This document shows, in pieces, positions 7,754 to 30,941 of a DNA stretch of 64,000 nt (positions within the stretch are counted from its first letter, which is position 1; each line of letters begins with the position of its first letter). Below the pieces are notes generated by a model. That model made no database searches and had not been told where the DNA came from. It saw only the letters and a list, made by a program, of their open reading frames with translations. Origin of the DNA: Sedimenticola selenatireducens DSM 17993 (GTDB taxonomy: Bacteria; Pseudomonadota; Gammaproteobacteria; Chromatiales; Chromatiaceae); assembly GCF_000428045.1 (NCBI RefSeq), contig NZ_ATZE01000026.1, positions 1 through 64,000 on the forward strand, read 5' to 3'. The position numbers and the translations under genes were made by a program.

Positions 7754-7761
7754 TCTGAAAA

Positions 7762-10706: not shown

Positions 10707-12005
10707 ATGACAAGGGCCAATTTGTATCGATCAATATTGGCAGCACTGCTGCTTTTATCCGCGACCGCCAACTTGCAGGCGGATCAAAGCGGCGTAATTT
10801 TTGACAATAGTATCCCCGCTCCGGTGGAAAGTGTGCCACTGAAGCCGACCCGGTTTACCCTCTATGACAGTCGAACCATTACCAGTATTACGACCTTTCA
10901 CTGGAATGGAGGCAAGGGTGCATTGCCCGGTTCTATAGCCCTGCAGGGAAAAAATAAACGCCTGATCGGACCCTGGCAGGCGAGCGCTATCGATGATGGT
11001 CAGGGGCTGGCTAACGCCTACTGGGAAGTGAAACCGAACATCATGCTGGAGGCCGGCACCTATACAGTGCTGGACTCTGAACCGGGGACCTGGTCCCGTA
11101 ATCCCGCGAAGGGTGATATGGGGATTGTGCGCATTCTCGGGCAACGGGGTGACGCGACAAAAGCACAACAGCACCCCAGTGAAGGCACTGAAGTCGAGCA
11201 AGTACCTTTACTGACGCTGGAGCAGCAGCAGGCGCGTGCAACGGAGCTGTTTCAACAGATACGGCAGGCTGATAAATATGACTATGCACAAATCGAACAG
11301 CTCTACCTGCAGCTGATAAGTGAATGTCCCGATACCGAGCAGGCTGAAGAGTCTTATTTCAGACTCTCAAATCTTTATCGCATGGGTATGGATCCACCGG
11401 AATATCGCAAGCTCAGGGAACTACTGGAAGCGTACCTGGAACGCTACCCGGCCTCAGAAATGGCACCAGAGATGGGTAAGCGCTTGCGGCGTGCCTATGA
11501 AGATACGGGCCAGTGGCCGCGGGTGGTGGAGCTTTACCATGCAGAGGTGTCCGCACTCACCGAGGCGAATCCGCACTATCTGGTGACACTGCTTGATTAT
11601 GCCAGGGCACTGGAGGGTAGTGGCGAGCGCGATAAATCGCTCGCGATTTACCGGCAAGTGGAGAGCGTGGCCAGTGGTGAAAAGGCCGGTAACTACGATA
11701 TGAGTGATCTGTGGTTACGGGTAGCGCGGAAACGTATCGAGATTATTGAACTGCTTCATGCGGAAAAGTGGCACGAACTGGTTGAAGCATACCGGAAGCA
11801 GTTCGCCAACATGGGCTTTGCGGAGATGCCACAGATTCAGGAACTGCTGGAGTATGCGCAGGCGCTGGAGAAGAGTGGTGACCAATCCGGGGCGATCAAG
11901 CAATATCGCCAGGTGATGCGCACCGATCAAGGCAACCAAACATTGCAGGCACAACAGGCCAGCGCCCGTTTGACGACGCTGGTCGGAACGGACTTGTACG
12001 AGTAA
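10707..12005 (+). CDS. Exported TPR-repeat protein
   Basis: The 432-residue product has a signal peptide (LAALLLLSATANLQA, then DQSG). Residues about 30-150 form a beta-rich domain of unknown type with the segments ESVPLKPTRFTLYD and EAGTYTVLDSEPGTWS. From about 165 the chain is helical with TPR or Sel1-like repeats, including EESYFRLSNLYRMG and LLEYAQALEKSGDQSGAIKQY near the end. Such repeats mediate protein-protein contacts. A good ribosome binding site (AAGGGG) precedes the ATG. It lies 25 bases ahead of another TPR gene. No family name can be given. Confidence 0.75.
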   Translation: MTRANLYRSILAALLLLSATANLQADQSGVIFDNSIPAPVESVPLKPTRFTLYDSRTITSITTFHWNGGKGALPGSIALQGKNKRLIGPWQASAIDDGQGLANAYWEVKPNIMLEAGTYTVLDSEPGTWSRNPAKGDMGIVRILGQRGDATKAQQHPSEGTEVEQVPLLTLEQQQARATELFQQIRQADKYDYAQIEQLYLQLISECPDTEQAEESYFRLSNLYRMGMDPPEYRKLRELLEAYLERYPASEMAPEMGKRLRRAYEDTGQWPRVVELYHAEVSALTEANPHYLVTLLDYARALEGSGERDKSLAIYRQVESVASGEKAGNYDMSDLWLRVARKRIEIIELLHAEKWHELVEAYRKQFANMGFAEMPQIQELLEYAQALEKSGDQSGAIKQYRQVMRTDQGNQTLQAQQASARLTTLVGTDLYE

Positions 12006-12030: not shown

Positions 12031-12927
12031 ATGCAAACCACACCATCGAGGAAAGAGCGTCTGTTTTGCCGCTTCAGGCGATTGATACCCGGAGTCCTGA
12101 TTATCGCCGTTTTGGGCGTACCATTCAGTTTGCACAGTGGGGAGCCAACCGTGGATGAGAGATTCAAACTGGCAGAGCAGGCGTTGAATGACGGCAATAT
12201 AGAGCAGGGAAGGGCACAGCTTGAATCCATTCTGAAGACCAATCCCGATGATAAGGAAGCCTGTAACCTGCTGGGCAATATCGCCTTGGCCCAGGGTCAG
12301 TTTGAGCAGGCGAAAAGCTATTACGACTGTGCGCTGAATGCAGATCCACTGTTTGCTGAAACCTACAATAATCTGGGCGTTCTGGCGTTGAAACAGGGAA
12401 ACGTAGAGGAGGCGATGACCAATTTTCATGCGGCGGTCAAGATCGATCCCAAGCGTGCAGATGCCTGGTACAACATGGGGCAAATACTGATGGCGGCCGG
12501 CCAGACGAAACCGGCAGGGGAGTACTTGCACAGGGCCATCAAGGCTGATCCCACGCATTCGGCGGCCATCCATCGTCTGGCGATTCTGCTTATTAGTCAG
12601 CGCCGCGGTGATGAGGCGGTAAAGCTGTTGGAAGAGTCGATGGGAGCCGTCTCTGAAAATCCTCAAATACTGTTCCTGCTGGCGACCCTATTGGATGACA
12701 TGGGGCGGAACAAGGAAGCGGCGGAAAGGTATCTGCAAGCACGAGCAGCCGGTGATCGTACTCCGGAACTCCCCCTCTACCTGGCCGGGGTACAGATCAA
12801 ACTGGGTCAGGAAAAGGCTGCGGATAAGGAGTTGCGAGGCATCCTCAGCAACGGCAAGGCCGATGCAGTGTTAAAGGAGAAAGCGTCTGCCCTGCTGAAG
12901 AAATTGGGTGACAAAGGTGCGCGCTGA
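12031..12927 (+). CDS. Membrane-anchored or exported TPR protein
   Basis: The 298-residue product has a basic N-terminus, then one hydrophobic segment (LIPGVLIIAVLGVPFSL, residues about 21-37), which is either a signal anchor or a signal peptide. The rest is a regular TPR array of about six or seven repeats; AETYNNLGVLALKQGNVEEA and AWYNMGQILMAAGQTKPA are textbook examples. AAGGAG precedes the ATG. It overlaps the following gene by 20 bases, which implies translational coupling. Tandem TPR proteins of this sort often act as scaffolds for envelope complexes; the partner here is not known. Confidence 0.82.
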   Translation: MQTTPSRKERLFCRFRRLIPGVLIIAVLGVPFSLHSGEPTVDERFKLAEQALNDGNIEQGRAQLESILKTNPDDKEACNLLGNIALAQGQFEQAKSYYDCALNADPLFAETYNNLGVLALKQGNVEEAMTNFHAAVKIDPKRADAWYNMGQILMAAGQTKPAGEYLHRAIKADPTHSAAIHRLAILLISQRRGDEAVKLLEESMGAVSENPQILFLLATLLDDMGRNKEAAERYLQARAAGDRTPELPLYLAGVQIKLGQEKAADKELRGILSNGKADAVLKEKASALLKKLGDKGAR

Positions 12928-15787: not shown

Positions 15788-18700
15788 TGAAGTCACTAAC
15801 TGCCCGGTTACTCCATGGCTTATTGCTCCTGACCCTTCTTGTTACCGTTGCCCATGCCGAGGCTCCGGGGCCCTTGGGTGTGAAAGTGTTCGAGCAAGCC
15901 GCTGACGCTACACGAAAGCCTATGGCCAATGTTCGGGTGCATATCGGTAACCGGCATGCTGCCACTGACGCCCGTGGGATGGCTGTCTTCGAGGGCCTGC
16001 CAGGTGGTGAGTATAAGCTGAGTGTGGAGCAGGCGGATTACCAGACCCTGACCCAGCAGGTTAGTCTGGCAAATGGCGCCCGCCAGGCCATCGAGCTGAC
16101 CCTGACGCCGGCAGCTGTGGTCCGGTGGGGTGGTCGGGTTGTCATTGAGGGTGGGGGGCAGCCGATTGCCGGGGTGATGGTGGTCCTGGATCCGATCGAG
16201 GTGAAATCGTCTCTTTCCGGACAGGCCCATTCGGTCACTACCTGGGATGGACGCTTTGAATTTATCGACCTGCCTGTTGGCCGCTATCAACTCAGCGCCA
16301 ATGCCCCCGGCTATGGATCAATCAGCCAGGCGGTGGATGTGGTTGCCCCGGATATGACCAAACAGGTCGAGATCGATGGGCCGATGATCGACGGCGTAGC
16401 GCTGGATCTCTGTCGTGAGTGGGGCAAGAACTGTAACAAGCCGGCAGCCGACCTGTTTTGTCAGCAGCAGAACTATTTCGAAGCGGGGGACTTCCGGGTA
16501 GAAAATGATAAGCCACCGACGCGAATCATCACCTCTGGAAAATTATGTGAAGCGGATAGCTGTGATCGTATCAGCTGGATAAAGTGTGTTGGTGATCAAC
16601 AGGAGCCGCTGCTGCTGAAGTTGAGGGCGGAATCAAAAGCCATCAGTCAGCCGGTGAAGGTGGCTGACCGGGTGACGGGTAAACCGATCTCCGGTGCCAC
16701 TATAGCGTTAGCCGAGACCTGGCCCAGCGGCGCCATTGCGGAGATGAAGAGTGATAGATCGGGACTGGCCCATTTCAAGGGATTGCAGATTGGTGCGGCC
16801 AACCACCAGGACGTTAATGGACGGGTGAGCCTGTCGCGGCGGCAGATTACCGCCCATGTTGCGGCAGAGGGTTATGTCTCTACCGTTGTTCCGCTGGTGC
16901 TCTCCGAGAGTGCCTCCCAGCTGGATGTCTCTTTATCACCGCTGACCGAGCAGCAGGAGCTGGAGCCCAACAATGATCTTGAGCACGGCCAGGAAGTGCT
17001 CGTGGGCGCATCCATCCGCTTCAAGATTGCCGAGCGGGGAGATCGTGACTTCTTTAAATTCAGGCTGCCCGAAGCGGCAAAGCTGACGGTAACGATTGAA
17101 GCTGCTCACCTTGAGACACTGTTACATCTGCGGGATAGCGATGGTAACTCGATCAGGCAGCAGGGGGCTCATGTCGGCAAACCGAATATTCTTGAGCAGC
17201 GCCTGGTCAGTGGCAGTTACTCAATCGAGGCGTCCGAATGGGGTAATAATGCCAGCGACCCGGAAGCCAGTCTGACATTGACCATTGCCGCAGAGCCGGC
17301 CGTTGATCCCAATGAACCGAACCAGGATGCTGAATCAGCCCGCACCATCAATCTGAATCAGCAGGTCTCCGGGCTGATCTGGCCGGTGGGTGATCGTGAT
17401 TTCTATCGTCTCGAAGTCAAGCAGGCCGGTATTCTTCGACTCAGCGATATGCATACTAGCCTGCAGCGTCACGTAAAGATCTACTCCAGTCTGGGTAAGC
17501 AGCTGGCAGCGCAGGGTGGTTACGCTGGCAAACCACTCGCTCTGGAGCATGCGGTAACCCCGGGTGTCTACCTGGTCGAGATGCAGGAGTGGGGAAATAA
17601 TGATGCCTCGCTGGAACCCTACCGCCTTTCAGTAGAGATGATGCCCGATGACGGTGTGGTCGATCCGGTACAGGTGCCAGGGGAGATGCGCGCCGCACGT
17701 TCACTGCCCTCCCATATCTGGTTTGCCAGTACCCTGCTGCCTGTCGGAGACCGGGATCTGTTCAGCGTCAATATTCCCGGTGCCGGCGTACTGCGCATGC
17801 AGAGCAAGGGGCCGATGCAGCGTCATCTCAAGGTGTTCGATGCTAAAGGTAAACTGCTGCAGGAGGTAGGTGGCTACGAGAACAAATCGGTGGAACTCAA
17901 CTGGCACGCCAACGGACCCGGGACGGTGTTCGTGTCGATCGAGGAGTGGGGCAACAACAGTTACTCTGCACTGCCCTACACGATGCGGGTCTGGTTTGAA
18001 CGGGCGGACGAGATCGATTATCAACAGCGCAACGAAAACTTTGACCAGGCGACGCCACTGGTGTCGGGGGATACCGTTTACGGCAGTTACCTGCCGATCG
18101 GGGATCAGGACTTCTATGCCGTGGATATCGACTTTCCCGGTATGTTGGAGGTGAGTGCAACTTCTGCTCAGCAGACCCACCTGCGAATATTCGACAGTCA
18201 GCGGAAGATGATTGCCGAGCGAGGAGCGTATGGGAATAAGACCGCCGAGTTGCGGCCTGAGGTGAACAAGGGCATCTACTATATCCAGCTCAGTGAGTGG
18301 GGCAATAACACCGCCTCGACCGAACCCTATGAGCTGAAGCTGGCACTGCAGCGAGCTGAACCGACGGAAACAGAGCCCCTGGCCGAAGACCCGCCGCGGC
18401 GGTTGCTGGATGGTGAGGCGCAGTCCTTCTCGATTGACCAGAACGGGGACCGCGACCGCTTCCTGTTTGAAATGGCCAAGGCCGGCGAGGTCAAACTGAG
18501 TATCGCCAGCCAGGTACAGACTCTGGTCAAGGTATACAACGACCAGACTGGCAAGCTGATTCACGAATCCGGTCACTACGATCCGGTTAGATGGTCTCGG
18601 TCGCTGAAGTTGGATGAGCCGGTTCGCCTCCGTATAGAACTGAGCGAATGGGGTAACAACGCGACCTCAAGGGAACCGGGGTTTATCATGGTCGACAGCC

Positions 18701-21700
18701 GGGGTCGTACTCTCCAGGCCGAGCATATCGAATCCACCCCCGATGGCTCTTTCCCCGAACAGGTCTCATTCAAGCGGCTGGTCCTCAAGCATGCTGACCC
18801 GGCGACCCGTTGTGAGCTCGACCTTGATGGTGATGGGAAGGCCGAGATCACACTCAACAGCGACCAGGCCAAAAGCGCACGCTTCCCCGGTGAAGGGCGT
18901 TATGTGGTTGAGTCAAAGTGTGTTGGTGCTGATGGCCAGGTTGCATGGCAGAAATTCTGGGTGCAGGCGACCGGCAATCGCGCCCGTGAAGGGATTGCCT
19001 TGTTCCTCAATTCACCGAGGGAAGGGCAGACCATCGATCAGCCCGTCAAGCTGGCGGCCCAGGCGATCAATTATAACGGTCGACCAGTTGCCGGTGTGCG
19101 CTACAAACTGGATGGCACCGTCCTGGCAACGGACTATTCGGCCCCTTACGATGTTGATGTGAATTGGCAGGCGCTGGCTGCGGGAAAACATACCGTGGAG
19201 GTTACAGCCTACGATGGTACAGGTGTCGAGGCGAGCGTCACCCGGCAATTTTACCTGTCAGAGTATTTTGATATCTCTCCTCCCAACGGGGCCGTGCTCA
19301 CTGGCGAATCGATACGGGTCAGCTGGCTTGCACCCAGGCATGGCGAGTCGCTGTTGCGTTACCGGAAACAGGGCAGCACGGAGTGGAAGACCGAGCGTGG
19401 ACAGAGTGGCCGGTTGCGCGTGGTCGAGCTGAAGGATCTGGAAGCCGCCGTGCCTTACGAGATACAACCGATGGGCGGCAGTCAGGATGGTCCGGTACAG
19501 ACCCTGACCCGAGTCAAGGGGTTGGCCTTTGGGCGCAGCCGTTACGGCGCCAATATCCGCCGGGATTATAATCAACGGGTGGGTATCAGCGTGCGCAACA
19601 ACGGTGATGAACCGCTGAGTGTTCGCCTCGAGTGCGGTAAACCGAAGGACCCCAGCATGCTGGTCGGTTTTGTCGGTGAAGGTTCGGAGGATAAACCAAT
19701 CAACCTGGCACCGGGAGAGGTGCGGGAGTTCCTTCTCGGCATTAGCGCCCAGGATGTGAACACTGCTGATCATACAATTCCTGTCCGGATCGTGTCCGAT
19801 AACGGATTGAGTGACGAGTCAGAGGTGGCAGTTCATGTTAGATTGCCGCATGTCGAACTGCAGTGGAAGGACCGGGGGGCGCTCCCGCTTGGTCATGGTC
19901 GTACTCTGCGGCTGACCAACCTGGGTGATACCATCACCGATCTTCAGGTGACCAGTGACAATAGCCAGGCCGTGACCATCTCCCCCACCGTTCAGCATGG
20001 GTTGCTAGCCCGTAACCAGTACCTGGACTTTACGGTTACGCCGCGATTTTATGAGGGCTTCAATGGCGTCAAAACCCGGATCGTGGCACGCGGTCTGAAG
20101 AAGGAGTTCAGTTACGATTATGAAATGAAGCTGGCAGCGGGCGAAAGCGCGCGGAAAATCTGGCTGTTTCCGGGTATTGATCCGACGGACGAATCCCTGC
20201 AAGAAAAGGAACCCGGGTTGATTCATAACGCCAACCTGGCGGAAAGGCTCGACCCTTCGAACATTGACTGGAGCCGGCGTGATAACCCGGAAGATCTCGA
20301 TCGGGATGGGGTGGCGGATCGCTGGTCGATGAACATCGGTGATGTACGCTGGGTTGGTGACGATACCAATGCGGATAGTGAAGTCGATTTTGTTCACGCC
20401 GATGTGGGCGATGACGGGATTTTTGAATACTCCGCGCTGCTTGAACAGGAGCAGTGGCATAAGACCAACCTGGTAGAGGCCTGGCTTGAGATGGGATTCA
20501 GCCTGCCCTGGAGTCGAAAAAGCTACCATCCCCACGATACCGATATTGTGCTGAATGGTCAGATTATTGGCGGATTGCGGGATACCATACCCGAGGGTAA
20601 CTACAGCTTCCGCATACCACCAGCTGCATTGCGGTTTGATAAAAACGGACATCCGGCGGACAACCGCATCGGTATCAACTCCAAGCATCTGCGCGGTGGC
20701 CACTATGTGGTTAATAGCGATTTTCGTTTCAAGTTCAGGTTAACCGCGACGCCTGTCTGGACAGTTGCCAAATCCGAGACAGAAGCGCGCCAGTCGGTAT
20801 CGCAGGTGGGGGGACTCTCTATCAATGCAGCGGACCTGAGTCTCTCTTCATCCGAAATCTGGCTGGACGCCCCCGCTGAAACAAAGACGGGCGACGAGGT
20901 GACGGTTGAGGTTCCGGTTCATAATCTGGGATCTGTTGCCGTACCCCAGGTGGACGTCGCGCTGCTTCGCAAGACGCAGGGGCGTGATCGTGAAGAGATC
21001 GGTCGTGTCACTGTCAGCGATATTACCCTGCATGGTGGCGCGATTGCGAAATTCAGCTGGAAGGCCACAGCCGGGTCCAGTGCCTTCTATCTGGTGGCTG
21101 ATCCGGAAAAACAGGTCAACGATCTGGATAGAGTCAATAACGAGGCAAACTTTTTCCTACCCGTCAAAGGCGAAGAGAAGCCGATTGTTATCACCTTCAA
21201 CCAGCCGAAGCCTGGCCGTGCTGTCGAGGGTCCAATTCAACGTCTTGAGGCGACCATAAACAAGGAAGCCGGGACGGTAGAACCTGCGCTTTCCATCGAT
21301 GGCGGACTCTGGACCGAATTTCCACCCGTCAAGGGCAAGTTGTCTACCGAACTGTTACTTCAACCGGGAGAACATCGCCTTGAACTGCGGGTGGTGGATG
21401 CTGCCGGGAATACGGCCATCAACGTGCTCCCTGTCAAGGTGAAAGCGGCACAACCCCAGGCCCAGGTCATGCAACCCAAACCCGGTGAATCGATCGCAGA
21501 ACGTCACGCGCACGTGGTAACTGCCATACCGAAGGAGACCGAACTGGTCGGTGTACGCACGGCGGGTGGGCCCTGGCATAAAGCCGTATTGACCGGTGAT
21601 GAGGCCCACGTCGACCTGCCATTGCAGTTTGGCCAGCAAACGATCGAGGTGATGGTGGCCAGCCAGTCCGGCGTGGTCAGGCACCTGTCTCTGGATGTTA

Positions 21701-22098
21701 ACTGTTCCGCGCAACCCGGGGAGCGAGATGAGCGGGTGGCTGCCGGAGCTGAGCTGCAGGGCTTGTTGTGGCCGATCCGTGACAGCGACCTCGCCATCGA
21801 CCTGTTTCAGGGCAGCAGTGGTGTCATGCAACCGGTGAAACCTGAAGAGCAGACAGCGGCACTACAGGCTGCAACTGAAAAACCGGCCAATACGGCCGCC
21901 ATGGATCCCAAGATGCGCCAGCGTTATGAAAAGGCTAAACGTTTGCGTACTGAAGGGGGAAAACTTCAGGCACAAGGGCGATTGCGCGAGGCCTTGGACA
22001 AGTATCAAGAGAGCCTCAGGTTCTATCCGGATTACCGCCTGGAAGCGCACATGCAATTGGTCGAGGGTGTACTCAACAAAACTGCACCCGCGAGATAA
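15787..22098 (+). CDS. Giant exported multidomain protein with five EWGNN repeats
   Basis: The 2103-residue product has a signal peptide (LLHGLLLLTLLVTVAHA). Residues about 25-100, 110-200 and 290-390 resemble carboxypeptidase-regulatory-like beta domains (for example GVKVFEQ...GLPGGEYKLSV). Five repeats of about 117 residues follow, similar to PPC-type domains (EPNN, GDRDFF/Y), each ending in EWGNN at residues 484, 601, 720, 837 and 954. Next come Ig-like and fibronectin-like segments, calcium-loop-like DLDGDGKAE and DLDRDGVADRW, and a CARDB-like domain near 1680-1800. Residues 2044-2103 form a TPR-like tail shared with the protein at 8765. GGAGCG precedes the ATG. I infer a periplasmic or surface binding scaffold; no catalytic motif is seen. 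Confidence 0.8.
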   Translation: MKSLTARLLHGLLLLTLLVTVAHAEAPGPLGVKVFEQAADATRKPMANVRVHIGNRHAATDARGMAVFEGLPGGEYKLSVEQADYQTLTQQVSLANGARQAIELTLTPAAVVRWGGRVVIEGGGQPIAGVMVVLDPIEVKSSLSGQAHSVTTWDGRFEFIDLPVGRYQLSANAPGYGSISQAVDVVAPDMTKQVEIDGPMIDGVALDLCREWGKNCNKPAADLFCQQQNYFEAGDFRVENDKPPTRIITSGKLCEADSCDRISWIKCVGDQQEPLLLKLRAESKAISQPVKVADRVTGKPISGATIALAETWPSGAIAEMKSDRSGLAHFKGLQIGAANHQDVNGRVSLSRRQITAHVAAEGYVSTVVPLVLSESASQLDVSLSPLTEQQELEPNNDLEHGQEVLVGASIRFKIAERGDRDFFKFRLPEAAKLTVTIEAAHLETLLHLRDSDGNSIRQQGAHVGKPNILEQRLVSGSYSIEASEWGNNASDPEASLTLTIAAEPAVDPNEPNQDAESARTINLNQQVSGLIWPVGDRDFYRLEVKQAGILRLSDMHTSLQRHVKIYSSLGKQLAAQGGYAGKPLALEHAVTPGVYLVEMQEWGNNDASLEPYRLSVEMMPDDGVVDPVQVPGEMRAARSLPSHIWFASTLLPVGDRDLFSVNIPGAGVLRMQSKGPMQRHLKVFDAKGKLLQEVGGYENKSVELNWHANGPGTVFVSIEEWGNNSYSALPYTMRVWFERADEIDYQQRNENFDQATPLVSGDTVYGSYLPIGDQDFYAVDIDFPGMLEVSATSAQQTHLRIFDSQRKMIAERGAYGNKTAELRPEVNKGIYYIQLSEWGNNTASTEPYELKLALQRAEPTETEPLAEDPPRRLLDGEAQSFSIDQNGDRDRFLFEMAKAGEVKLSIASQVQTLVKVYNDQTGKLIHESGHYDPVRWSRSLKLDEPVRLRIELSEWGNNATSREPGFIMVDSRGRTLQAEHIESTPDGSFPEQVSFKRLVLKHADPATRCELDLDGDGKAEITLNSDQAKSARFPGEGRYVVESKCVGADGQVAWQKFWVQATGNRAREGIALFLNSPREGQTIDQPVKLAAQAINYNGRPVAGVRYKLDGTVLATDYSAPYDVDVNWQALAAGKHTVEVTAYDGTGVEASVTRQFYLSEYFDISPPNGAVLTGESIRVSWLAPRHGESLLRYRKQGSTEWKTERGQSGRLRVVELKDLEAAVPYEIQPMGGSQDGPVQTLTRVKGLAFGRSRYGANIRRDYNQRVGISVRNNGDEPLSVRLECGKPKDPSMLVGFVGEGSEDKPINLAPGEVREFLLGISAQDVNTADHTIPVRIVSDNGLSDESEVAVHVRLPHVELQWKDRGALPLGHGRTLRLTNLGDTITDLQVTSDNSQAVTISPTVQHGLLARNQYLDFTVTPRFYEGFNGVKTRIVARGLKKEFSYDYEMKLAAGESARKIWLFPGIDPTDESLQEKEPGLIHNANLAERLDPSNIDWSRRDNPEDLDRDGVADRWSMNIGDVRWVGDDTNADSEVDFVHADVGDDGIFEYSALLEQEQWHKTNLVEAWLEMGFSLPWSRKSYHPHDTDIVLNGQIIGGLRDTIPEGNYSFRIPPAALRFDKNGHPADNRIGINSKHLRGGHYVVNSDFRFKFRLTATPVWTVAKSETEARQSVSQVGGLSINAADLSLSSSEIWLDAPAETKTGDEVTVEVPVHNLGSVAVPQVDVALLRKTQGRDREEIGRVTVSDITLHGGAIAKFSWKATAGSSAFYLVADPEKQVNDLDRVNNEANFFLPVKGEEKPIVITFNQPKPGRAVEGPIQRLEATINKEAGTVEPALSIDGGLWTEFPPVKGKLSTELLLQPGEHRLELRVVDAAGNTAINVLPVKVKAAQPQAQVMQPKPGESIAERHAHVVTAIPKETELVGVRTAGGPWHKAVLTGDEAHVDLPLQFGQQTIEVMVASQSGVVRHLSLDVNCSAQPGERDERVAAGAELQGLLWPIRDSDLAIDLFQGSSGVMQPVKPEEQTAALQAATEKPANTAAMDPKMRQRYEKAKRLRTEGGKLQAQGRLREALDKYQESLRFYPDYRLEAHMQLVEGVLNKTAPAR

Positions 22099-22183
22099 AA
22101 ATGAATGACAGCACCGAAAAGAGACAACTATTTTTGGGTTCAGGCAGCGCTAGGGGCCTGGCCTACAACTGGGAGGAAAGGTT

Positions 22184-24322
22184 GTGAAAAGGCATGAATG
22201 GCTCAGACAATTAATATCCACTCTACTGTGCAGTCTGCTATTGGTCAGCACGGTATACGCAAGTACCGGCGCCGACGCGCTGGAAGGGAACAACGCAACC
22301 GGCGCGGATGCTCTGGAAGGTGGAGCGGTGTCGGCCGATGCCCTGGAAGGTGGCATCAGTGCCTCACCGGTAACCTGTGATGGGCAATCACCCTGTATCG
22401 AAACCGCTACCGGATTACCGCTGCAGGTGCTGCCTCGACCCTTTGCCAATGTCTACCTGGAGCAGCAGGCAAATCCCGATGCGGTGGCGCAGGCCAATGT
22501 TCAGGCCTTCCGGCCTTTGTATGTATTTGCGCGCGAGGGTATCGATTTAAGCAATCCCTCTGATCCACAGGGTTGGTATCAGGTGGGTAGCAATAAAAAG
22601 CAGACCACGGGCTGGATTCAGGCGAAAGATGCCCTGGAATGGCGACAGGCACTGGTGGTCGCTTATACCCATCCCGGAGGGATCGCAGAAGGGCGTAAAC
22701 CGGTTTTGATGTTCAAGGATGTGGAATCGCTGCAAGCCATCGTCGATGCTGAGGATATGACGGGCAAGGCTGCGGAGATCTACAACGCCATCGATAACGC
22801 GACGCCACCTGACACGGTGGTCAGCATGGAGCCAAAAAGGTACATCGATATCAACCGTCAATTTTATATTTTGCCCATTCTGGATTGGGAACAGCTGGAT
22901 ATCTATGGTGACGAGGTGCGGCTGCTTCAACTAGCTGCGGCTGTACCCGGGCAGCGTGGCGCCGACACCCTGGACGACAGTGGCTACAGGGACCAGGCCA
23001 GTACTGGTCGCGAGGTGGATCAGGGGGCCGGACTCGCTGACCTCTCGATCGATGTGGTGTTTGTCATGGATACGACACGCAGCATGCAGCCTTATATCGA
23101 TATGACGCGGGATGCCGTCAGGCGCATGGTCCAGACCACGGGTGATCGCCTGAAGGATAAGGTGAAGTTCGGGCTGGTCGGCTATCGTGACGCGGTCGCC
23201 GCCGTCCCGGCTGTGGAGTACACCAGCCGCAATTTCACCCCGGAACTGGTGGATGCCAACAGCTTGATCGAGGTACTTACCAACGAAGCCAGGGCCACAC
23301 CAGCCGGCAGTCTGGATTATGCTGAAGAGGTTTTTTCCGGTGTGGATATGGCGTTGCGCTCGCAATGGCGTCCCGGTGCATTGCGTTTTATTGTCCTGGT
23401 GGGTGATGCCAGTTCCCATCCCCGTGGACATCCGCAGAACACTACCGGCAAGGACGAGACCGACTTGCGACGTGAGCTGGATGATGCCGGTGTGCATCTG
23501 ATCTCGTTACATCTCCAGGATGAGCGTGCCGCCGAGGATCATGACCGTGCTGCCACCCAGTTTGGCCACTTGGCGCAGGTTCGGGGTAGTGATGGCCAAC
23601 AGGCACTGGTACAGGTCAATGCCTTTAAAGAGGGTGATTTTCAGGCCGCTGTTGACAGCGTGGTAGGCGGGGTTGTGAGCCGGTTTGAACAGTCCCTGGC
23701 CATGCGCAGTCTGCCACCACCACCTCCCATGCCGGAATACGGAGCCGACCTGGATGTCGCAACACAAGGTCAGATGGCGATGGACAAGGTCTGGGAAGCG
23801 GCGTTGATCGAATATCTTGGCAAGGGTGCACGGCCACCCAAAGATATCGTTGCCTGGGTAATGGATCGTGACCTGCTGAATCCCGCTGATACCGCCCTGG
23901 AAGTGCGGGTTTTGGTGACGCGCGAACAGTTAAGCAGCCTGGTACAGGCCCTTGATCGTGTCCTAAAGGCTTTTGATCAGGCGAAGATCAGCCAGGGACA
24001 GTTTTTCGAGGCGTTGCAGAGTGTCTCGGGCCAGACCCTCAAGCGCCCCGAGGATCTGGGCAGGGCGCAGAGTCTGGCGGAGACCGGGCTGCTTCCCGCT
24101 TTTATCCAGAGTCTGCCATACCGTAGCGATATTCTCTCGCTGAGCAATGAGATGTTTGCCAGCCTCACTGCCGAGCAGCGGGTTCAACTGGAGTGGGGTT
24201 TGAAGGCCAAACTGGCCCAGTATCTGGCGATTAATTCGCAGGTCGATGCCTGGCATCGACTGAATGAATCCGACCCAGCCAGTGAACTGGTGCATCCGTT
24301 GCATATCGATTATTTGCCTTAA
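22184..24322 (+). CDS. Secreted vWA protein resembling the periplasmic half of T6SS kinase PpkA
   Basis: The 712-residue product begins at GTG behind GGGAGGAAAGG and has a signal peptide. Just after it come three ADALEG motifs (residues 30-35, 41-46, 51-56). Residues about 75-180 form an SH3-like segment (RPLYVFARE, GWYQVG, GWIQAKDA, WRQALVVAYTH) and residues about 288-495 a vWA domain with MIDAS-type DTTRS (D296, S300) and GDAS (D408). This order, and the closing HPLHIDYLP, recall the periplasmic region of PpkA, the kinase upstream of which TagQRST acts in Pseudomonas. No kinase domain is present here. The following genes look like TagT, TagS, TagR and TagQ, which supports the reading. Likely a periplasmic sensor or adaptor. 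Confidence 0.75.
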   Translation: MKRHEWLRQLISTLLCSLLLVSTVYASTGADALEGNNATGADALEGGAVSADALEGGISASPVTCDGQSPCIETATGLPLQVLPRPFANVYLEQQANPDAVAQANVQAFRPLYVFAREGIDLSNPSDPQGWYQVGSNKKQTTGWIQAKDALEWRQALVVAYTHPGGIAEGRKPVLMFKDVESLQAIVDAEDMTGKAAEIYNAIDNATPPDTVVSMEPKRYIDINRQFYILPILDWEQLDIYGDEVRLLQLAAAVPGQRGADTLDDSGYRDQASTGREVDQGAGLADLSIDVVFVMDTTRSMQPYIDMTRDAVRRMVQTTGDRLKDKVKFGLVGYRDAVAAVPAVEYTSRNFTPELVDANSLIEVLTNEARATPAGSLDYAEEVFSGVDMALRSQWRPGALRFIVLVGDASSHPRGHPQNTTGKDETDLRRELDDAGVHLISLHLQDERAAEDHDRAATQFGHLAQVRGSDGQQALVQVNAFKEGDFQAAVDSVVGGVVSRFEQSLAMRSLPPPPPMPEYGADLDVATQGQMAMDKVWEAALIEYLGKGARPPKDIVAWVMDRDLLNPADTALEVRVLVTREQLSSLVQALDRVLKAFDQAKISQGQFFEALQSVSGQTLKRPEDLGRAQSLAETGLLPAFIQSLPYRSDILSLSNEMFASLTAEQRVQLEWGLKAKLAQYLAINSQVDAWHRLNESDPASELVHPLHIDYLP

Positions 24323-24327
24323 ATGCT

Positions 24328-25125
24328 ATGAACGTTCGTGAATCTGTAGAAGCTGTCAGGCAGCAACATCCGGAGGCTGATAAGAATCTATCGGCACCAG
24401 TGTTAATGCTGCAACAGGTGGTGAAGACGCGACAACATGCCACGAACAGTTTTCAGCTTGTGATTCCGGAATTGACTGTCCGTGCAGGGGAATTTGTGGC
24501 GGTGGTGGGTGAGAGTGGTTGTGGCAAAAGCACCTTGCTTGACCTGTTGGCGCTGATATCAAAGCCGAACGAGGTTTCCCGCTTTCGGCTGGCCTTCACG
24601 GAGCAGGATCAAACTGATGTGGCCAGCTTGTGGGCGCGTAACGATGAGAACGCGTTGGCCTCCGTCCGACGACGACACCTGGGTTATGTATTGCAGACGG
24701 GTGGGTTATTACCCTATCTGAGCGTGCAGGACAATCTGTTGCTACCCATGCGCATGAACAGACTGCCGGGTGCCAATCAGCGCGTGCTTGCCATGGCTGA
24801 ACGTATGGGGGTCACTGACTGTTTGAAGCGCAAACCGGATGCGCTTTCTGGGGGACAGCGCCAGCGGGTCGCCATCCTGCGTGCCCTGTCCCATGCCCCA
24901 CGGCTGGTACTGGCGGACGAACCGACCGCTGCTGTTGACAAACGACGCGCCCGACTGATCGTGGATGATTTCAGGTCGTTGGCAAGGGATGAAGGTCTCT
25001 CCATTATCATGGTTACGCATGATTTGGATCTGGTGAAATCGCTGGCCGATGCGACTTATGGTTTTGAAGTGACCCAAGTTGCGGAGAACCAGGTGCGTTC
25101 CATCTGTCGCAGGGAGCCTGCCTGA
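24328..25125 (+). CDS. ABC transporter ATP-binding protein, TagT/LolD-like
   Basis: The 265-residue protein has a full set of ABC ATPase motifs: Walker A GESGCGKST near residues 62-70, Q-loop LQTGG, signature LSGGQRQRV near 172-180, Walker B LVLADEPT and switch histidine VTHD. It belongs to the LolD/MacB/FtsE type that drives mechanotransmission permeases. It begins five bases after the vWA gene and its stop overlaps the permease start by one base. Next to the vWA, FGE-like and lipoprotein genes, the best parallel is TagT of the type VI posttranslational pathway rather than LolD itself, but sequence alone cannot separate them fully. Confidence 0.88.
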   Translation: MNVRESVEAVRQQHPEADKNLSAPVLMLQQVVKTRQHATNSFQLVIPELTVRAGEFVAVVGESGCGKSTLLDLLALISKPNEVSRFRLAFTEQDQTDVASLWARNDENALASVRRRHLGYVLQTGGLLPYLSVQDNLLLPMRMNRLPGANQRVLAMAERMGVTDCLKRKPDALSGGQRQRVAILRALSHAPRLVLADEPTAAVDKRRARLIVDDFRSLARDEGLSIIMVTHDLDLVKSLADATYGFEVTQVAENQVRSICRREPA

Positions 25126-26957
25126 TGATTAATAGCGGCAGCCAAAGGATGCGCGTTTTCAACCTGGCCGCGGCCCACCTCCGGCATGAATGGGTATTAA
25201 CCCTGTGCCTGGTTTCCGCGCTGGCCGCGGTGCTCGCACCGCTACTGATATTGATGGGGCTTAAAGAGGGGACAATAGAAACGCTACGCGATCGACTGGT
25301 GCAGGACCCGGTCTACAGGGAGATCCGGCCCGCGATAACACGCAACTTTGACGAACAGTGGCTGCGGCAGTTGCAGGGCAAGCCCGGCGTGGCCTTCATG
25401 ACCCCCACAATCCTGCCAGCCTCATCAATGATTCATCTCAGCTCGGGCGACAGTGACAGTGAACTGATGGACCTGGTTCCGACGGACAGTGGTGATCCGC
25501 TTTTGTTGGAAAATGGCGCTGCCATTCCACAGAATGGTGAATGCGTGCTGAGCAGTGAAGCGGCCAGACGTCTGGGGACAAAGGCCGGCGAAACCATCGT
25601 GGCCCGGGTGACCCGGAGCCGTGCGGGAAGATTGGAAACCGCGGAAGAGCGGCTGCGGGTGATAGCCGTTTTATCAACCCGGGCCGGTAATCTGGCCAGG
25701 GTCTATACCCCTCTGGACTTTGTTGTCGATGTCGAGTCCTACAAAGAGGGGCGTGGGATTGCCAGGCGTGGTTGGAACGGGGAGTCAGCCCGCCCCTATA
25801 TGAGTTTTGATGGGGTTGTGGTGCTATCCGAGACCCCGCTTGATCCGGTGACCCGTACCGGCCTGGTGGTGAATACCGGCCTGCTGAAGGCAGATAGCAT
25901 GACTGCCGTGTCGTTTAAATCACTGACCGGCCTGGGTTTGCCGGATGGCTGGCATGCGTACGATCTGAACATCCCCGCCGGAGCGGTCAACTTCTCCAGT
26001 ATCAAAGCACTGCAGCGGAAATTGCGGGGTAGAGGCGCGGTGGTGTTCCCCTATGCCAGGGAAATGGAACTTGAACTGCCGAATGGCCAGCTTGCGGTGA
26101 TGGGACTCTCGATCAGTGCTGAATTGGCCAGAAAGCTCGATTGGCCGGTTCCACCTTGGGGGCAGTTGTCAGACCGGGCTCTGGATTCTGGTCGGTTATT
26201 GCAGGCCGTACTGCCAAATGACATGTTCGATCAATCCTCTGAACTGCAGGTCGTCTTTACCGGTGTCGCCAGGTTGGAGCTGCCTTTAAAGGTTGCCGGG
26301 GCGTCCAGTTTAAAGACGGCGCTAATACCGGCTGAACTGATGGGTATGTTGCGCACAGGTGTTGAGCGCAAGGTGAGTTATCAGCCAGAGTCCGGCGGCC
26401 TGGTTCTGGAACGTGCCGGCTATCGTGGTTTTCGACTCTATGGCGAAACTATCGATGATATCCCCGCTCTGGTAGAACATCTCCGATCCGGTGGACTGGA
26501 AGTGGTCGCGGAGGTCGACGCGATTGAACGCATCCAGGTTTTGGATAGAGGCTTGAGTCGACTCTTCTGGTTGATCGCCGTGCTGGGCGTGGTGGGTGCC
26601 GGTGCCGTACTGGTGGCCAGTTTGTATGCGGCCGTTGAACGTGAGCGAAAGGATTTGGGTGTCTTGCGATTGATCGGTCTGGCACGTACCGATGTATTTC
26701 TGTTTCCGGTCTTTCAGGGAGCGCTGATTGCCATCCTCGGCGTGGCCATTGGCTGGCTTGGCTATTGGTGTCTGGCACAGGTGATCAATAGTGCATTTGG
26801 CCATGAACTTGCCGTTGGACAGGCCATCTGTCGTCTGCCCGCGGGGTATTCCTGGCTGGCCCTGGCGGCCACGCTAGCGCTGGCTGTATGCAGTTCTCTG
26901 ATCGCAGCCTGGAAGGCAACATTAATCGATCCAGCGGAGGCAATTCGTGAAGAGTAG
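25125..26957 (+). CDS. ABC transporter permease, TagS/MacB-LolCE-like
   Basis: The 610-residue protein has the type VII ABC layout: one N-terminal membrane segment (LTLCLVSALAAVLAPLLILMG), a large periplasmic domain of about 430 residues, and three C-terminal segments in the FtsX/MacB core (for example LFWLIAVLGVVGAGAVLVAS), with the cytoplasmic loop RERKDLGVLRLIGL that couples to the ATPase. Such permeases transmit force to periplasmic partners or extract lipoproteins. It is coupled to the ATPase gene by a one-base overlap and overlaps the FGE-like gene by 11 bases. TagS of Pseudomonas has this position in its pathway; homology beyond the fold needs a search. Confidence 0.85.
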   Translation: MINSGSQRMRVFNLAAAHLRHEWVLTLCLVSALAAVLAPLLILMGLKEGTIETLRDRLVQDPVYREIRPAITRNFDEQWLRQLQGKPGVAFMTPTILPASSMIHLSSGDSDSELMDLVPTDSGDPLLLENGAAIPQNGECVLSSEAARRLGTKAGETIVARVTRSRAGRLETAEERLRVIAVLSTRAGNLARVYTPLDFVVDVESYKEGRGIARRGWNGESARPYMSFDGVVVLSETPLDPVTRTGLVVNTGLLKADSMTAVSFKSLTGLGLPDGWHAYDLNIPAGAVNFSSIKALQRKLRGRGAVVFPYAREMELELPNGQLAVMGLSISAELARKLDWPVPPWGQLSDRALDSGRLLQAVLPNDMFDQSSELQVVFTGVARLELPLKVAGASSLKTALIPAELMGMLRTGVERKVSYQPESGGLVLERAGYRGFRLYGETIDDIPALVEHLRSGGLEVVAEVDAIERIQVLDRGLSRLFWLIAVLGVVGAGAVLVASLYAAVERERKDLGVLRLIGLARTDVFLFPVFQGALIAILGVAIGWLGYWCLAQVINSAFGHELAVGQAICRLPAGYSWLALAATLALAVCSSLIAAWKATLIDPAEAIREE

Positions 26958-28596
26958 ATGTCTGTGGCTGTTGGGTGCTCTATTGGTAACACTACAGGTT
27001 TGGGGGGCGGTGCCGCCAAAGAGCATCTATAACCCCAGCCCGGCCGACGGTGACTTGGTATTGCCGATGCCTAACGGGGCCGAGATGGTACTGCGTCCGG
27101 TTGAAGTCCCGGGTAAGGGGTTCTGGGGTGCCCGTGAGCGATTCGTGCAAATGGGCGATGCCAGTGGAGGTGCGTTCGAAGGTATACAGCGGAGCATGGT
27201 GGCCGGGTCGTTTCAGGATGCCCAGAACGAGCGTTGGATAATCTGGATCGGCAAATATGAACTGACCAAGGGGCAGTTTGTTGCAGTGATGGGCAGTGAT
27301 GCCCTGGCCGCTGCCAGCGGTAATTCCGCCGATCAGAAATTTGACGATCTGCAGGGGCGGAAACTGAAACAGGCGCAGGCGATGCCCCTTGCGTGGATAG
27401 ATTATCAGGTGATTGAAGATTTCATCCGGGCGTACAATCGCTGGCTGTTTGATCCGGCACACCCGGAGCGACAGGCTGGACTCCCTGCAGTGGATGGTGT
27501 GCCGGGCTTTTTTCGCCTGGCCACGGAGGATGAATGGGAATATTCCGCCAGAGATGGACTGGAGGCAATAAAGGACGGGAGCTTCAACGATCGAGTACCC
27601 TTTGCAGCTCGCCAGTTGAATGAGTACGCCTGGCATCTGGGCAACGCAAAAAACAAGCCACGACCAGTCGGCATGCGCAAACCCAATCGACTGGGCATTC
27701 ACGATCTCTATGGCAATGTTCATGAAATGACTGCTGGCATATTTCGGCCCGAAGTCTGGCAAGGCAAGCCGGGCGGTGTGCCTGTGCGTGGTGCGAGTGT
27801 TTCCAGTCCCGCCGGTAAGGTGCGATCAAGCTACAGAACAGAGTTTGACGCTTATGCCTGGGATGCGGAAAACAAGCAGATGGTTTTGCGCAGAACCTTC
27901 AATATAGGTGCCCGACTCGCCTTCGGTTCCAATGTTGTGGTCAGTTCTGCCACGCGCAGTGCGCTGGAGAAAGAGTATGCAGAATACCGTAAAACCCTGC
28001 GCCGCGAGACGCCGGTAGGCCGCACACTGGATAACTTGGTCAGTCAGGCATCCAGTCAATTGGATACCGTGGACACGGTGCTTCAGCAATTGCTGGACCG
28101 CTATCCGGACGCGCAAGGACAGGTGCAGTCAATTCAGAGCTATGTGGATACGGCACGAGGTCAATTGGATCAGGCGCAGCGGGAGAGTGCCCGGAGCCTG
28201 TTGCAGGACGCATCGCGCAACGGGACCAATCTGAGTGTGTTGGTAAGCAAGCGCGCCACGCTTGAAACAGCCAAAAAGACAGCGGAAAAATTATTGGCTA
28301 TGTCCACACGCTACCAGGCTCAGGTTGATGCCGTACAGAAGTCTCTGGATGAGAACAGGGCCGCAGCCGAAGAACAGTATAAGGCTTACTTGGAAAAGGT
28401 GGCATTGATTGGTGACTATCAGAATGAATTCAGGACGCATGCATTCAAGATGCTGCAGAAGAAGACGTTAAGTTCGAGAGAGGCGCGTGTGCTGGAGTTA
28501 CTGGATCTCCATGTGCAGAAATATAACGAGAATCGGATGGTGGATAAAGCTGTCTGGTTGGAAGAGTTCAACAAAATTTTCAGTGAATTTAGATGA
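26947..28596 (+). CDS. Exported formylglycine-generating-enzyme-like protein, TagR-like, with coiled-coil C-terminus
   Basis: The 549-residue product starts at a GTG with GGAGG six bases upstream and has a signal peptide (LLGALLVTLQVWG). Residues about 60-320 follow the FGE/SUMF1 fold: KYELTKGQFVAVMG, RLATEDEWEYSARDG, LYGNVHEMTAG, RGAS and the final IGARLAF. The mature chain contains no cysteine at all, so the oxidase chemistry of true formylglycine-generating enzymes is excluded. Residues about 335-549 are helical and probably coiled-coil, an extension not typical of simple FGE-like proteins. TagR, an FGE-like periplasmic protein acting with TagQST on PpkA, is the closest functional parallel I know. 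It probably binds other envelope components. Confidence 0.82.
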   Translation: MKSRCLWLLGALLVTLQVWGAVPPKSIYNPSPADGDLVLPMPNGAEMVLRPVEVPGKGFWGARERFVQMGDASGGAFEGIQRSMVAGSFQDAQNERWIIWIGKYELTKGQFVAVMGSDALAAASGNSADQKFDDLQGRKLKQAQAMPLAWIDYQVIEDFIRAYNRWLFDPAHPERQAGLPAVDGVPGFFRLATEDEWEYSARDGLEAIKDGSFNDRVPFAARQLNEYAWHLGNAKNKPRPVGMRKPNRLGIHDLYGNVHEMTAGIFRPEVWQGKPGGVPVRGASVSSPAGKVRSSYRTEFDAYAWDAENKQMVLRRTFNIGARLAFGSNVVVSSATRSALEKEYAEYRKTLRRETPVGRTLDNLVSQASSQLDTVDTVLQQLLDRYPDAQGQVQSIQSYVDTARGQLDQAQRESARSLLQDASRNGTNLSVLVSKRATLETAKKTAEKLLAMSTRYQAQVDAVQKSLDENRAAAEEQYKAYLEKVALIGDYQNEFRTHAFKMLQKKTLSSREARVLELLDLHVQKYNENRMVDKAVWLEEFNKIFSEFR

Positions 28597-28609
28597 TAAG
28601 AGGTGATGT

Positions 28610-29299
28610 ATGAAAACCTTGGCAGTTAAAGTTGTACCGGTGATTCTGGTCGGTACCATGCTTACCGGTTGTGTCACTAATCAACCAAGAAACGATACCG
28701 AAAGTTCCACGGCATCAAGTCAGTCAGATTCGCAGCGAACAAAAACCGAAGGTGCAGTATTTGGCGCCTTACTGGGTGGACTGATTGGGCTGGCTGCTGG
28801 CGATGAAAAAGGCGCCGTTATTGGAGCGGCAGTAGGTGCGGGGGCGGGCTACTTGATTGGTAACGAAATCGCCAAGCGCAAGGAGGCTTATGCCACCAAT
28901 GAAGATTTCCTTGACGCGGAAACTGCACGCACCGCCGAATTCAATCAGACCGCGAAAGCACAGCACCAGCGTCTGCGTACGGAAATAGCCGCACTTGATA
29001 CCGAGACTGCTGCATTGAGAAAACAGTACAAGTCTGGCAAGGCGAATCGGGATCAACTGCTGGCGAAGCAGAAACAGCTCAACGAGAAGATAGCAAAGAA
29101 TCAGGAGTTTGAATCTACATTACAGAAAGAGTATGAGATCAATTCCGAAATTCTTGCCGAAGAGCGCAAGACACGTCCGGCATCCGATCCCTACCTGGCC
29201 AAACTGGAGAAGGAAAACAACGACCTGAAGGCCCAGATTGAACAGTTGCGAGATGACAGCACACAGCTTGCACAGATAAACGAGAGGTTATCGGTATGA
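28610..29299 (+). CDS. Glycine-zipper lipoprotein, TagQ-like
   Basis: The 229-residue product has a lipoprotein signal with lipobox LTGC, so residue 22 or thereabouts becomes the lipidated cysteine. Residues about 45-85 form a glycine zipper (GALLGGLIGLAAG, then GAVIGAAVGAGAGYLIG). The rest is charged and coiled-coil. Residue +2 is valine, which favours sorting to the outer membrane. TagQ of the Pseudomonas type VI signalling pathway is likewise an outer-membrane lipoprotein, and the gene order here matches. The gene overlaps the next by four bases. Confidence 0.75.
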   Translation: MKTLAVKVVPVILVGTMLTGCVTNQPRNDTESSTASSQSDSQRTKTEGAVFGALLGGLIGLAAGDEKGAVIGAAVGAGAGYLIGNEIAKRKEAYATNEDFLDAETARTAEFNQTAKAQHQRLRTEIAALDTETAALRKQYKSGKANRDQLLAKQKQLNEKIAKNQEFESTLQKEYEINSEILAEERKTRPASDPYLAKLEKENNDLKAQIEQLRDDSTQLAQINERLSV

Positions 29300-29865
29300 A
29301 GACGCAACAGACGCTGGTGATTCTTGCCACTTTGCTGCTGACGGGTTGCGTGACCACCGACGATCCGCGGGAAGGAGGATTTTTTGGAGGGGTTCACGGT
29401 ATTTCCAGTGGTTCCTACGAACGTCGCGCCCAGGAGCGTGAGGAAAATCTGGCGAAAGTGAGGGCCATGCAGAAAGAACTGGAAGCGGAAACAGAGAGCC
29501 TTGATGCACAGAAGCATCAACGTCAGTTGGTGTTAGAACAGGAACAGAGCAAGCTGGCTACTCTGAACAGGGATGTGAAGGCCCTGGAGGCGAGATTGAT
29601 GACGCTGGGTAAGGAGCAGGGTGCCTCGGATAAGCGGGTGGCGGACCTTCAGCGTCGGCTCGACGTGTTGAAGGGGCAGTTATCCAAGCAGCAGACTAGC
29701 CTCGATGCGCTTGAAGGTGGCGGTACCGGGGGCGCCGATGCGCTGGAGGGAACTGGCACCGGGGCGCTCGGTGACACGCGTCGGCAACAATTGGAGGCAC
29801 AACGGCTGGAGTTGCAAAAGGAGTATGACTCGTTGCTCAGCTTGACATTGATGCTGGCAGAGTGA
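29296..29865 (+). CDS. Coiled-coil lipoprotein with ADALEG motif
   Basis: The 189-residue product has a lipobox LTGC after a short hydrophobic segment. Residues about 40-135 form a long predicted coiled coil rich in Glu, Lys, Gln and Leu. Then comes a glycine-rich stretch with LDALEGGGTGGADALEG (about residues 138-155), the same ADALEG motif found three times at the start of the mature vWA protein encoded at 22184. A short second coiled coil ends the chain. No family is recognised. The overlap of four bases on both sides (ATGA and GTGA) marks it as part of the same transcript. The shared motif suggests a common binding partner. Confidence 0.75.
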   Translation: MKTQQTLVILATLLLTGCVTTDDPREGGFFGGVHGISSGSYERRAQEREENLAKVRAMQKELEAETESLDAQKHQRQLVLEQEQSKLATLNRDVKALEARLMTLGKEQGASDKRVADLQRRLDVLKGQLSKQQTSLDALEGGGTGGADALEGTGTGALGDTRRQQLEAQRLELQKEYDSLLSLTLMLAE

Positions 29866-30941
29866 AATCCCGTTTGCGTTACCTGGTTACCCTTCTGGGC
29901 CTAGTGTGGAGTTTGCCCCTGGTCGCGACGGAAGCCCGGGTTGTGGAAGAGGTGCGGGCAATTTTACTGAGCCAGGCCTTGAATGTGCCGAATGAATCCC
30001 AGCTGCAGTCGTTGGCTCAGGAGGACCTGGGATCGAGTGTAAAGACCATCGATCCCTGGGCACACCTTGTCCCGCCCGGAAATGTGGCCGAGAGCAGGGC
30101 AGGAATAGGCGCCGAGTTATATAAAATCGGGCAGCGAACCTGGCTCATGCCCTATATGAACGGGCCGCTTGCTCGTGCCGGTATCAGGGATCGGGTCGAA
30201 CTCTACAAGGTCAATAGTAAAGAGGTTGCAGTGTTGTCTCTACCCGATATTGCACGAATGCTCACGGGTAGTACGGGGGATGTGTTACAGATTGAGATTT
30301 GCGAGTCCGCATGCAGATCGCCCTCGACCCTGACCTTAGTATTGGAAGATACCCCGGTTCCAGCGGTCGAAGCGGTGGAGTTGGCGGGGCAACGCATCAT
30401 TCGAGTACGCAGTTTCAGGCAGCAGGAGACAAAAATATTTCTCGCCACTTTGGTGAGCGCAACAACCGACTCCTCCCCGTTAATCCTGGATCTGCGTGAT
30501 TGCCAGGGGGGCGACCTGTTTGAGGCGATGGATAGTGCCGCTTTGTTCCTCCCGGCCGGACAGGAGCTGGCAGTGACCTATGATCGGCATGGCCTAAAAC
30601 GGCGTTTTTATTCACCACAGACTCCACCCAAGTTCGCCCGCCCGCTAACTATCTGGATAAGTGAGGTGACCGCGAGTGCAGGAGAGATATTCGCCGGTAT
30701 TCTTCAGCAGCAGGGGCGTGCCAGGCTGGCTGGCATGCGAAGTCGCGGTAAATGTGTCTCGCAGACAAAAAAACGGCTCTCCGATGGATCGCTGTTTTAT
30801 TTTACTAACCTGGAAATCCGCTTGCCCGGGGGTGTTGGTTGTAAGGATGTAGGGATAGAACCGGATATTACGCTCGGCGTTGAGGAGTTGCGCAGCAGCC
30901 GGTTGATTCTGGATCGCCTTCAACCAAGCGGAGTGCAGTAA
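29862..30941 (+). CDS. Exported S41-family (C-terminal-processing-type) serine protease
   Basis: The 359-residue product starts at GTG, overlapping the upstream stop, and has a signal peptide. Residues about 80-150 form a PDZ-like domain (GPLARAGIRDRVELYKVN). The S41 domain follows: LILDLRDCQGG near 207-217, TIWISEVTASAGEIFAGIL with presumed nucleophile S272, and K297 exactly 25 residues later in RSRGKC, the same Ser-Lys spacing as in Prc/CtpA proteases. It therefore looks catalytically competent. GVGCKDVGIEPDI matches the usual end of the domain. It is shorter than Prc and lacks its N-terminal extension. As the last tightly coupled gene of the block it may process one of the large exported proteins; that is inference. 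Confidence 0.85.
   Translation: MKSRLRYLVTLLGLVWSLPLVATEARVVEEVRAILLSQALNVPNESQLQSLAQEDLGSSVKTIDPWAHLVPPGNVAESRAGIGAELYKIGQRTWLMPYMNGPLARAGIRDRVELYKVNSKEVAVLSLPDIARMLTGSTGDVLQIEICESACRSPSTLTLVLEDTPVPAVEAVELAGQRIIRVRSFRQQETKIFLATLVSATTDSSPLILDLRDCQGGDLFEAMDSAALFLPAGQELAVTYDRHGLKRRFYSPQTPPKFARPLTIWISEVTASAGEIFAGILQQQGRARLAGMRSRGKCVSQTKKRLSDGSLFYFTNLEIRLPGGVGCKDVGIEPDITLGVEELRSSRLILDRLQPSGVQ

Follow-up and report, generated by a model that had tools for sequence, protein, structure and literature searches.

Introduction

The closest described counterpart of the gene module studied here, which starts at position 22184 of a 64,000-nucleotide stretch of the Sedimenticola selenatireducens DSM 17993 genome (contig NZ_ATZE01000026.1; hereafter the window), is the TagQRST-PpkA set of the H1-type type VI system of Pseudomonas, whose five proteins are homologous to those of the window and encoded in the same order. 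TagQRST-PpkA is treated as an accessory of type VI secretion, and in Pseudomonas aeruginosa it signals when the type VI weapon is to be fired. A second relative was reported in 2013, when host-associated Deltaproteobacteria, most of them devoid of type VI machinery, were found to carry srfABC genes together with tagQ, ppkA and tagRST (PMC3608642). This neighbourhood is the Srf form of the module: like the window form, it comprises a free vWA protein, an ATP-binding cassette (ABC) pair, a pseudo-FGE and a glycine-zipper lipoprotein and has also been seen without type VI machinery, but it has a short permease (~405 amino acids), is preceded by SrfA-SrfB-SrfC and falls in another clade. LolCDE and MacAB (MacB-type, type VII ABC systems) are a third term of comparison, since permease topology, fold and ATPase class are as in the window, whereas the window partners are vWA, pseudo-FGE and lipoproteins instead of LolA/LolB or MacA/TolC, and the sequence similarity of the window permease to LolCE is confined to the FtsX C-terminal part.

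Unlike TagQRST-PpkA, the window set has a vWA protein with neither a kinase domain nor a membrane segment and resides in a genome without TssC; it also has a longer permease, a coiled-coil lipoprotein, an S41 peptidase and a LEG motif, and belongs to a separate clade. No description of this free form was found in the open-access papers searched (subscription papers were not covered).

Results

The module is collinear with PpkA, TagT, TagS, TagR and TagQ

The window is part of contig 15 of a 4.59-Mb genome, the completeness of which is rated 100%, and in the protein search, which gave 408 relatives, the nearest ones belong to Sedimenticola (82-85% identity). The initial annotation had described five consecutive genes, and indeed the five + strand open reading frames (ORFs) were recovered at the same positions, with Pfam matches in agreement with the proposed product types. 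The conserved unit comprises seven genes rather than five: a coiled-coil lipoprotein and an S41 peptidase also belong to it, because the order vWA-ATPase-permease-FGE-glycine-zipper lipoprotein-coiled-coil lipoprotein-S41 recurs in the majority of the ~40 related loci. The features of the unit are the following.

22184..24322, + strand: free exported vWA protein (712 amino acids, GTG start; Pfam vWA 4.7e-06)
24328..25125, + strand: ABC ATPase, TagT counterpart (265 amino acids; Pfam ABC_tran 9e-27)
25125..26957, + strand: LolCE/MacB-type permease, TagS counterpart (610 amino acids; Pfam FtsX 1e-11, weak MacB_PCD)
26947..28596, + strand: exported pseudo-FGE, TagR counterpart (549 amino acids, GTG start; Pfam FGE-sulfatase 8e-19)
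28610..29299, + strand: glycine-zipper lipoprotein, corresponding to TagQ in position and profile (229 amino acids; Pfam Gly-zipper_Omp 1e-9)
29296..29865, + strand: coiled-coil lipoprotein, kept with the free form (recurrent gene order)
29862..30941, + strand: exported S41 (CtpA-type) peptidase with PDZ domain (domain match and recurrent gene order)

A tandem pair of vWA genes stands ahead of the ATPase gene in loci L037, L038, L043 and L044, as lineage-specific duplications.

A TagQ search of three Pseudomonas/Azotobacter genomes carrying Srf-type modules gave no match, and the references were then drawn from a family-wide search. The TagQ of a Pseudomonas genome scores above the NCBIfam cut-off, and genomes of the family to which it belongs supplied the reference TagQRST-PpkA loci. 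Their gene order, PpkA-TagT-TagS-TagR-TagQ, is that of the window. The part of PpkA that follows the kinase aligns end to end with the window vWA protein (28% identity, E 3e-62), and in the profile-profile comparison the match extends over 617 columns (E 1.4e-115), beginning with the N-terminal beta domain and reaching the very end, where both have a C-terminal Leu-Pro; the similarity spans the whole periplasmic part of PpkA and goes far past the generic vWA fold. TagT and the window ATPase have 42-44% identity, while TagS and the permease have 34-40% in two blocks flanking an insert. TagR matches the FGE-like protein with E 1e-20 to 1e-27, helical C-terminal region included, and when TagR was used as query on plasmids the module FGEs ranked top. 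TagQ and the glycine-zipper lipoprotein are remote relatives (profile probability 99%, E 5e-18 over the glycine-zipper half).

Gene-by-gene homology and collinearity together uphold the initially proposed likeness to PpkA, TagT, TagS, TagR and TagQ. In the broad sense of TagQRST-PpkA the module has a PpkA-like vWA protein, a TagT/TagS-like pair, a TagR-like protein and the characteristic gene order, and its occurrence is not tied to some other system, LolCDE for example; in the strict sense of the type VI threonine phosphorylation pathway (PpkA-PppA-Fha) it falls outside, since its vWA part carries no Ser/Thr kinase. Judged from these sequence comparisons, the window module is a kinase-free form of the PpkA (periplasmic part)-TagT-TagS-TagR-TagQ envelope module.

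Against the NCBIfam TagQ family (NF041250) the glycine-zipper lipoprotein scores 16 bits, the curated cut-off being 300, and this family was rejected as a module marker because it is too narrow (1/369 class genomes). In one genome a tandem pair of TagQ-family genes is accompanied by a third, weak relative (L012:1981-4132).

Features of the single proteins

The vWA protein consists of a signal peptide, an N-terminal beta domain (~80-255), the vWA domain (~288-500) and a C-terminal mixed domain (~525-712). It is a free exported protein with its own signal peptide and no kinase domain, as had been claimed. The model of its vWA domain is closest to integrin I domains (Z 18), and this domain filled the fold-search list for the protein model; a PDB sequence search with the vWA profile gave no matches. 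The likely metal-site residues D296, S300 and D408 are invariant in the alignment.

The ATPase translation evidences Walker A (GESGCGKST), LSGGQ and Walker B (LVLADEPT) sequences. The permease is longer than TagS by ~130-210 periplasmic residues, placed between the two matching blocks, and is modelled with four helices and ~400 periplasmic residues, in a fold nearest to LolCDE and MacB. The LolCDE equivalog scores are far from reached, with 35 bits against a cut-off of 362 for the permease and 135 against 308 for the ATPase.

The pseudo-FGE carries a C-terminal helical region, as TagR does. The catalytic cysteine pair of FGE is absent from its RGGS region (RGASVSSPAGKVRSSYR), and no cysteine is found there in free-form, Srf or TagR sequences. 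Activity as an FGE enzyme was rejected, as the catalytic cysteines are missing in all aligned FGE-like proteins, and for this same reason TagR and its relatives look like pseudo-enzymes.

Two deep groups of vWA proteins

The phylogenetic analysis comprised 88 vWA proteins in a quick IQ-TREE run, with support from the Shimodaira-Hasegawa-like approximate likelihood ratio test (SH-aLRT) only and a midpoint root. Two deep groups resulted. The free form, including the window protein, makes up one of them (45 rows, support 100) and spans Gammaproteobacteria, Alphaproteobacteria, Thermodesulfobacteriota, Myxococcota, Nitrospinota and Verrucomicrobiota; with the midpoint root it is sister to the group of Srf and PpkA. 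The second group contains the SrfABC-linked form, found in Klebsiella plasmids, Pasteurellaceae, Methylococcaceae and others, a smaller Sel1-protein form, and PpkA as one monophyletic twig. The whole vWA family occurs in 23 of the 276 sampled Gammaproteobacteria genomes. Within the Srf/PpkA clade, loci L061, L077, L079, L080, L084 and L089 are reduced to a Sel1-repeat membrane protein, vWA, ATPase and permease, with no adjoining FGE or glycine-zipper gene.

Two loci bear on the origin of PpkA. The first (L064:1778-19980) is a type VI cluster in which the kinase-vWA fusion (PpkA) is accompanied by TagT/S/R-like genes and by a gene for an additional coiled-coil lipoprotein. The second, of the second group, is from Chromatium weissei (L090:8274-11932) and has a separate kinase gene immediately before a free vWA gene, an arrangement that possibly corresponds to a split state of PpkA. 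PpkA thus looks like a kinase fusion that arose inside the second group.

Kinase, FHA, type VI and Srf genes

The initial annotation had noted the absence of kinase, FHA and Tss genes from the window, and the whole-genome searches agree with it. The genome holds six Hanks kinases and two FHA matches, none of them in the window, and no TssC/VipB (the E. coli control was positive; other Tss genes were not searched genome-wide). No SrfABC genes adjoin the module, and their presence elsewhere was rejected because the whole-genome search for SrfB was empty; no control genome gave a SrfB match, but the SrfABC baits recover genes in related loci. An assignment as an anti-phage defence system was also rejected, as PADLOC returned only a chance coiled-coil match (LmuB, 0.002).

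Among 40 genomes with the free module, TssC is absent in 27 and present in 13. A kinase gene lies within 10 kb in four of ~45 free-clade loci (L038, L043 and two of Azospirillum), in no case co-directional with the module. In the two Azospirillum loci (L007, 7967-11302, and L046) genes for a TerY-like vWA protein, a PP2C and a kinase-like protein whose C-terminal part is SH3-like are divergent from the module; this set, which we take to be the one called TerY-PP2C-kinase, is found beside no other sampled free-form module, nor in the window. Elsewhere in the Sedimenticola genome itself, one 569-residue protein combines a Ser/Thr kinase with a phosphatase region of PP2C type in appearance (L108:1243-2952, contig C17).

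A motif common to the vWA protein and the coiled-coil lipoprotein

A short LEG motif is found in both proteins of the window, with the copies of the lipoprotein lying in LDALEGGGTGGADALEGTG.

22262..22357, + strand: mature N-terminus of the vWA protein, with DALEG three times (disordered in the model)
29701..29763, + strand: LEG motif copies in the coiled-coil lipoprotein (motif search)

In one subclade the vWA proteins have one to three motif copies, such as ALEGTxGH, directly after the signal peptide, and the coiled-coil lipoprotein of the same loci bears LDALEGSGLGD, in two copies in the window. The background rate of LEG is 0.08 per 1000 residues.

Upstream exported proteins and their tail domain

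Five co-directional genes (8765-22098), most of them with exported products, lead up to the module, successive genes being either overlapping or 20-85 bp apart.

8765..10687, + strand: 640-residue exported protein, first gene of the run
10707..12005, + strand: exported protein of the same co-directional run
12031..12927, + strand: TPR protein of the same run, retained in other Sedimenticola
12908..15787, + strand: exported low-complexity (T/S/D/K-rich) protein, retained in other Sedimenticola
15787..22098, + strand: 2103-residue exported protein with CarboxypepD_reg, PPC, Ig-like and CARDB domains, ending 85 bp upstream of the vWA gene
10526..10675, + strand: TPR-like tail domain, copy 1 of 2 in the genome, C-terminus of the 640-residue protein
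21931..22083, + strand: TPR-like tail domain, copy 2 of 2 in the genome, C-terminus of the 2103-residue protein

The tail is a C-terminal TPR-like domain of 50 residues that at E 0.01 matches only these two proteins in the genome. A 1990-residue homologue of the 2103-residue protein, also with the tail, is encoded in a Chromatiaceae genome on a contig other than that of the module (L115:3619-9591).

A terminator-like hairpin (8305-8332) lies upstream of the first gene of the run, at 8765, and the search for such hairpins gave none in front of the vWA gene. An internal start ahead of this gene is possible, given a weak promoter-like match at 22105-22134. Just upstream of the operon (7532-8234) two successive tRNA-Ala(ggc)/tRNA-Glu(ttc) pairs have the appearance of a duplication, and the remaining window genes are, by their reading, housekeeping or redox genes.

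Large exported proteins flanking the LEG-clade modules have an N-terminal domain of ~110 residues, here termed RAL ('ATGPDGLLxMEQQGKVTVRALxxWxxLP'), which occurs in loci L016, L017, L018, L020, L023, L025, L028, L029, L030, L034, L113 and L117 (all except L016 by profile) and not in the window. It is often present in several paralogues, overlaps the S41 ORF in L032, and several of the proteins that bear it have no Pfam match.

Discussion

A possible mechanism

We give about even chances to the reading that the kinase-free module is an ATP-driven envelope device working on co-encoded exported proteins. The ABC pair, TagT and TagS counterparts, would operate as a MacB/Lol-type machine in which cytoplasmic ATP hydrolysis is converted into movement of the enlarged periplasmic domain. 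The vWA protein and the pseudo-FGE may form a periplasmic assembly, which the two lipoproteins would tether to the outer membrane and on which this movement would act, and the LEG repeats of the vWA protein and the coiled-coil lipoprotein could bind one common partner, displacing one another, or each other. In the type VI form a fusion across the membrane joins the vWA part to a kinase, and in this way the state of the assembly would be signalled to the cell interior; the window vWA protein has neither membrane anchor nor kinase, so that the effect would stay within the envelope. The most likely output would be the presentation or, with the S41 peptidase, the maturation of the large co-encoded tail-bearing exported proteins. 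Action on the upstream proteins, the output suggested initially, is a conjecture that gains indirect support from the shared gene run and from the tail, which in this genome only two of these proteins carry; the term sensor used in that suggestion is carried over from P. aeruginosa.

In favour of this reading we count the homology, the recurrent seven-gene order, the separate free clade, the lack of TssC in this genome and in most free-module genomes, the folds of permease and vWA domain, the joint occurrence of LEG and the tail survey, the last two with the limits given below; other observations weigh against it. The contacts among the module parts and the role of the tail proteins as clients are what we infer, and the upstream exported proteins vary between lineages. 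Across 28 genomes with the free module the tail profile gave 30 matches and, leaving aside one Nitrospinia genome with eight matches, 20 of 22 are on the contig of the module within ~18 kb, a count biased upwards by a profile built mostly from module neighbours; the informative part of the survey is the near-absence of matches away from the module. Moreover, 12 of the 28 genomes have no tail match. The LEG motif is present or absent together in both proteins in 32 of 35 loci (22/2/1/10; Fisher p 4e-6), yet this amounts to about one gain on the tree, kept in ~27 loci, and not to independent gains; the three exceptions seem due to a gene called too short, a gene in two pieces and a residue outside the search pattern (DALEGVG in L028). 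Finally, the six Hanks kinases encoded elsewhere in the genome could still be partners. A more extensive and less probable proposal is that of a distinct ATP-driven system for the assembly, display or maturation of surface proteins, with clients marked by the C-terminal tail or, in other lineages, by the N-terminal RAL domain, and with LEG on the vWA protein and the coiled-coil lipoprotein as the switch, TagQRST-PpkA being its late conversion into a kinase-fused sensor.

Alternative explanations

A LolCDE/MacAB-like exporter or lipoprotein trafficker, having the co-encoded lipoproteins or the tail proteins as substrates and the vWA protein and pseudo-FGE as chaperones, is unlikely but retains some weight. 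The fold of the permease, its enlarged periplasmic domain and the tail common to neighbouring exported proteins are consistent with such a role, whereas the tail proteins have ordinary-looking Sec signal peptides (by eye) and would not need an inner-membrane exporter, the operon has no MacA- or TolC-like gene, and TagS and TagT, the closest characterised relatives, are reported to be activators of type VI assembly (PMC6657622).

We also consider doubtful that the module is a sensor reporting to an unlinked transmembrane kinase, as a split PpkA whose vWA protein would contact that kinase at its periplasmic part. Candidate partners are available among the six Hanks kinases, and both the divergent set beside the Azospirillum modules and the kinase gene directly preceding the vWA gene in Chromatium weissei, although from the other clade, point in this direction; against it stand the rarity of nearby kinase genes in the free clade, none of them co-directional, and the lack of kinase and FHA genes in the window.

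It is very improbable that the module is the remnant of a type VI cluster after loss of the kinase and secretion genes. TssC does occur in the 13 free-module genomes mentioned above, but all module genes are intact and widely conserved, and the idea is disfavoured by the vWA tree, in which the free form is a supported clade of its own outside PpkA, itself a single derived twig of the other clade. A chance meeting of generic domain types with no kinship to TagQRST-PpkA has practically no probability, for although each of the families concerned (vWA, ABC, FtsX, FGE) is common, the matches of the vWA protein and the pseudo-FGE cover several domains at full length, the gene order is identical, module FGEs lead the plasmid search with TagR, and the recurrence of the order in ~40 related loci excludes a chance assembly.

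Conclusions

The five-protein envelope device must have a job independent of type VI secretion, because it is intact in genomes without type VI, has no kinase and forms its own clade, and the type VI pathway has probably recruited it. The LEG motif and the tail provide two concrete, testable handles on the module, and the free form, being simpler, lends itself to asking how the ABC pair, the pseudo-FGE and the vWA parts actually function.

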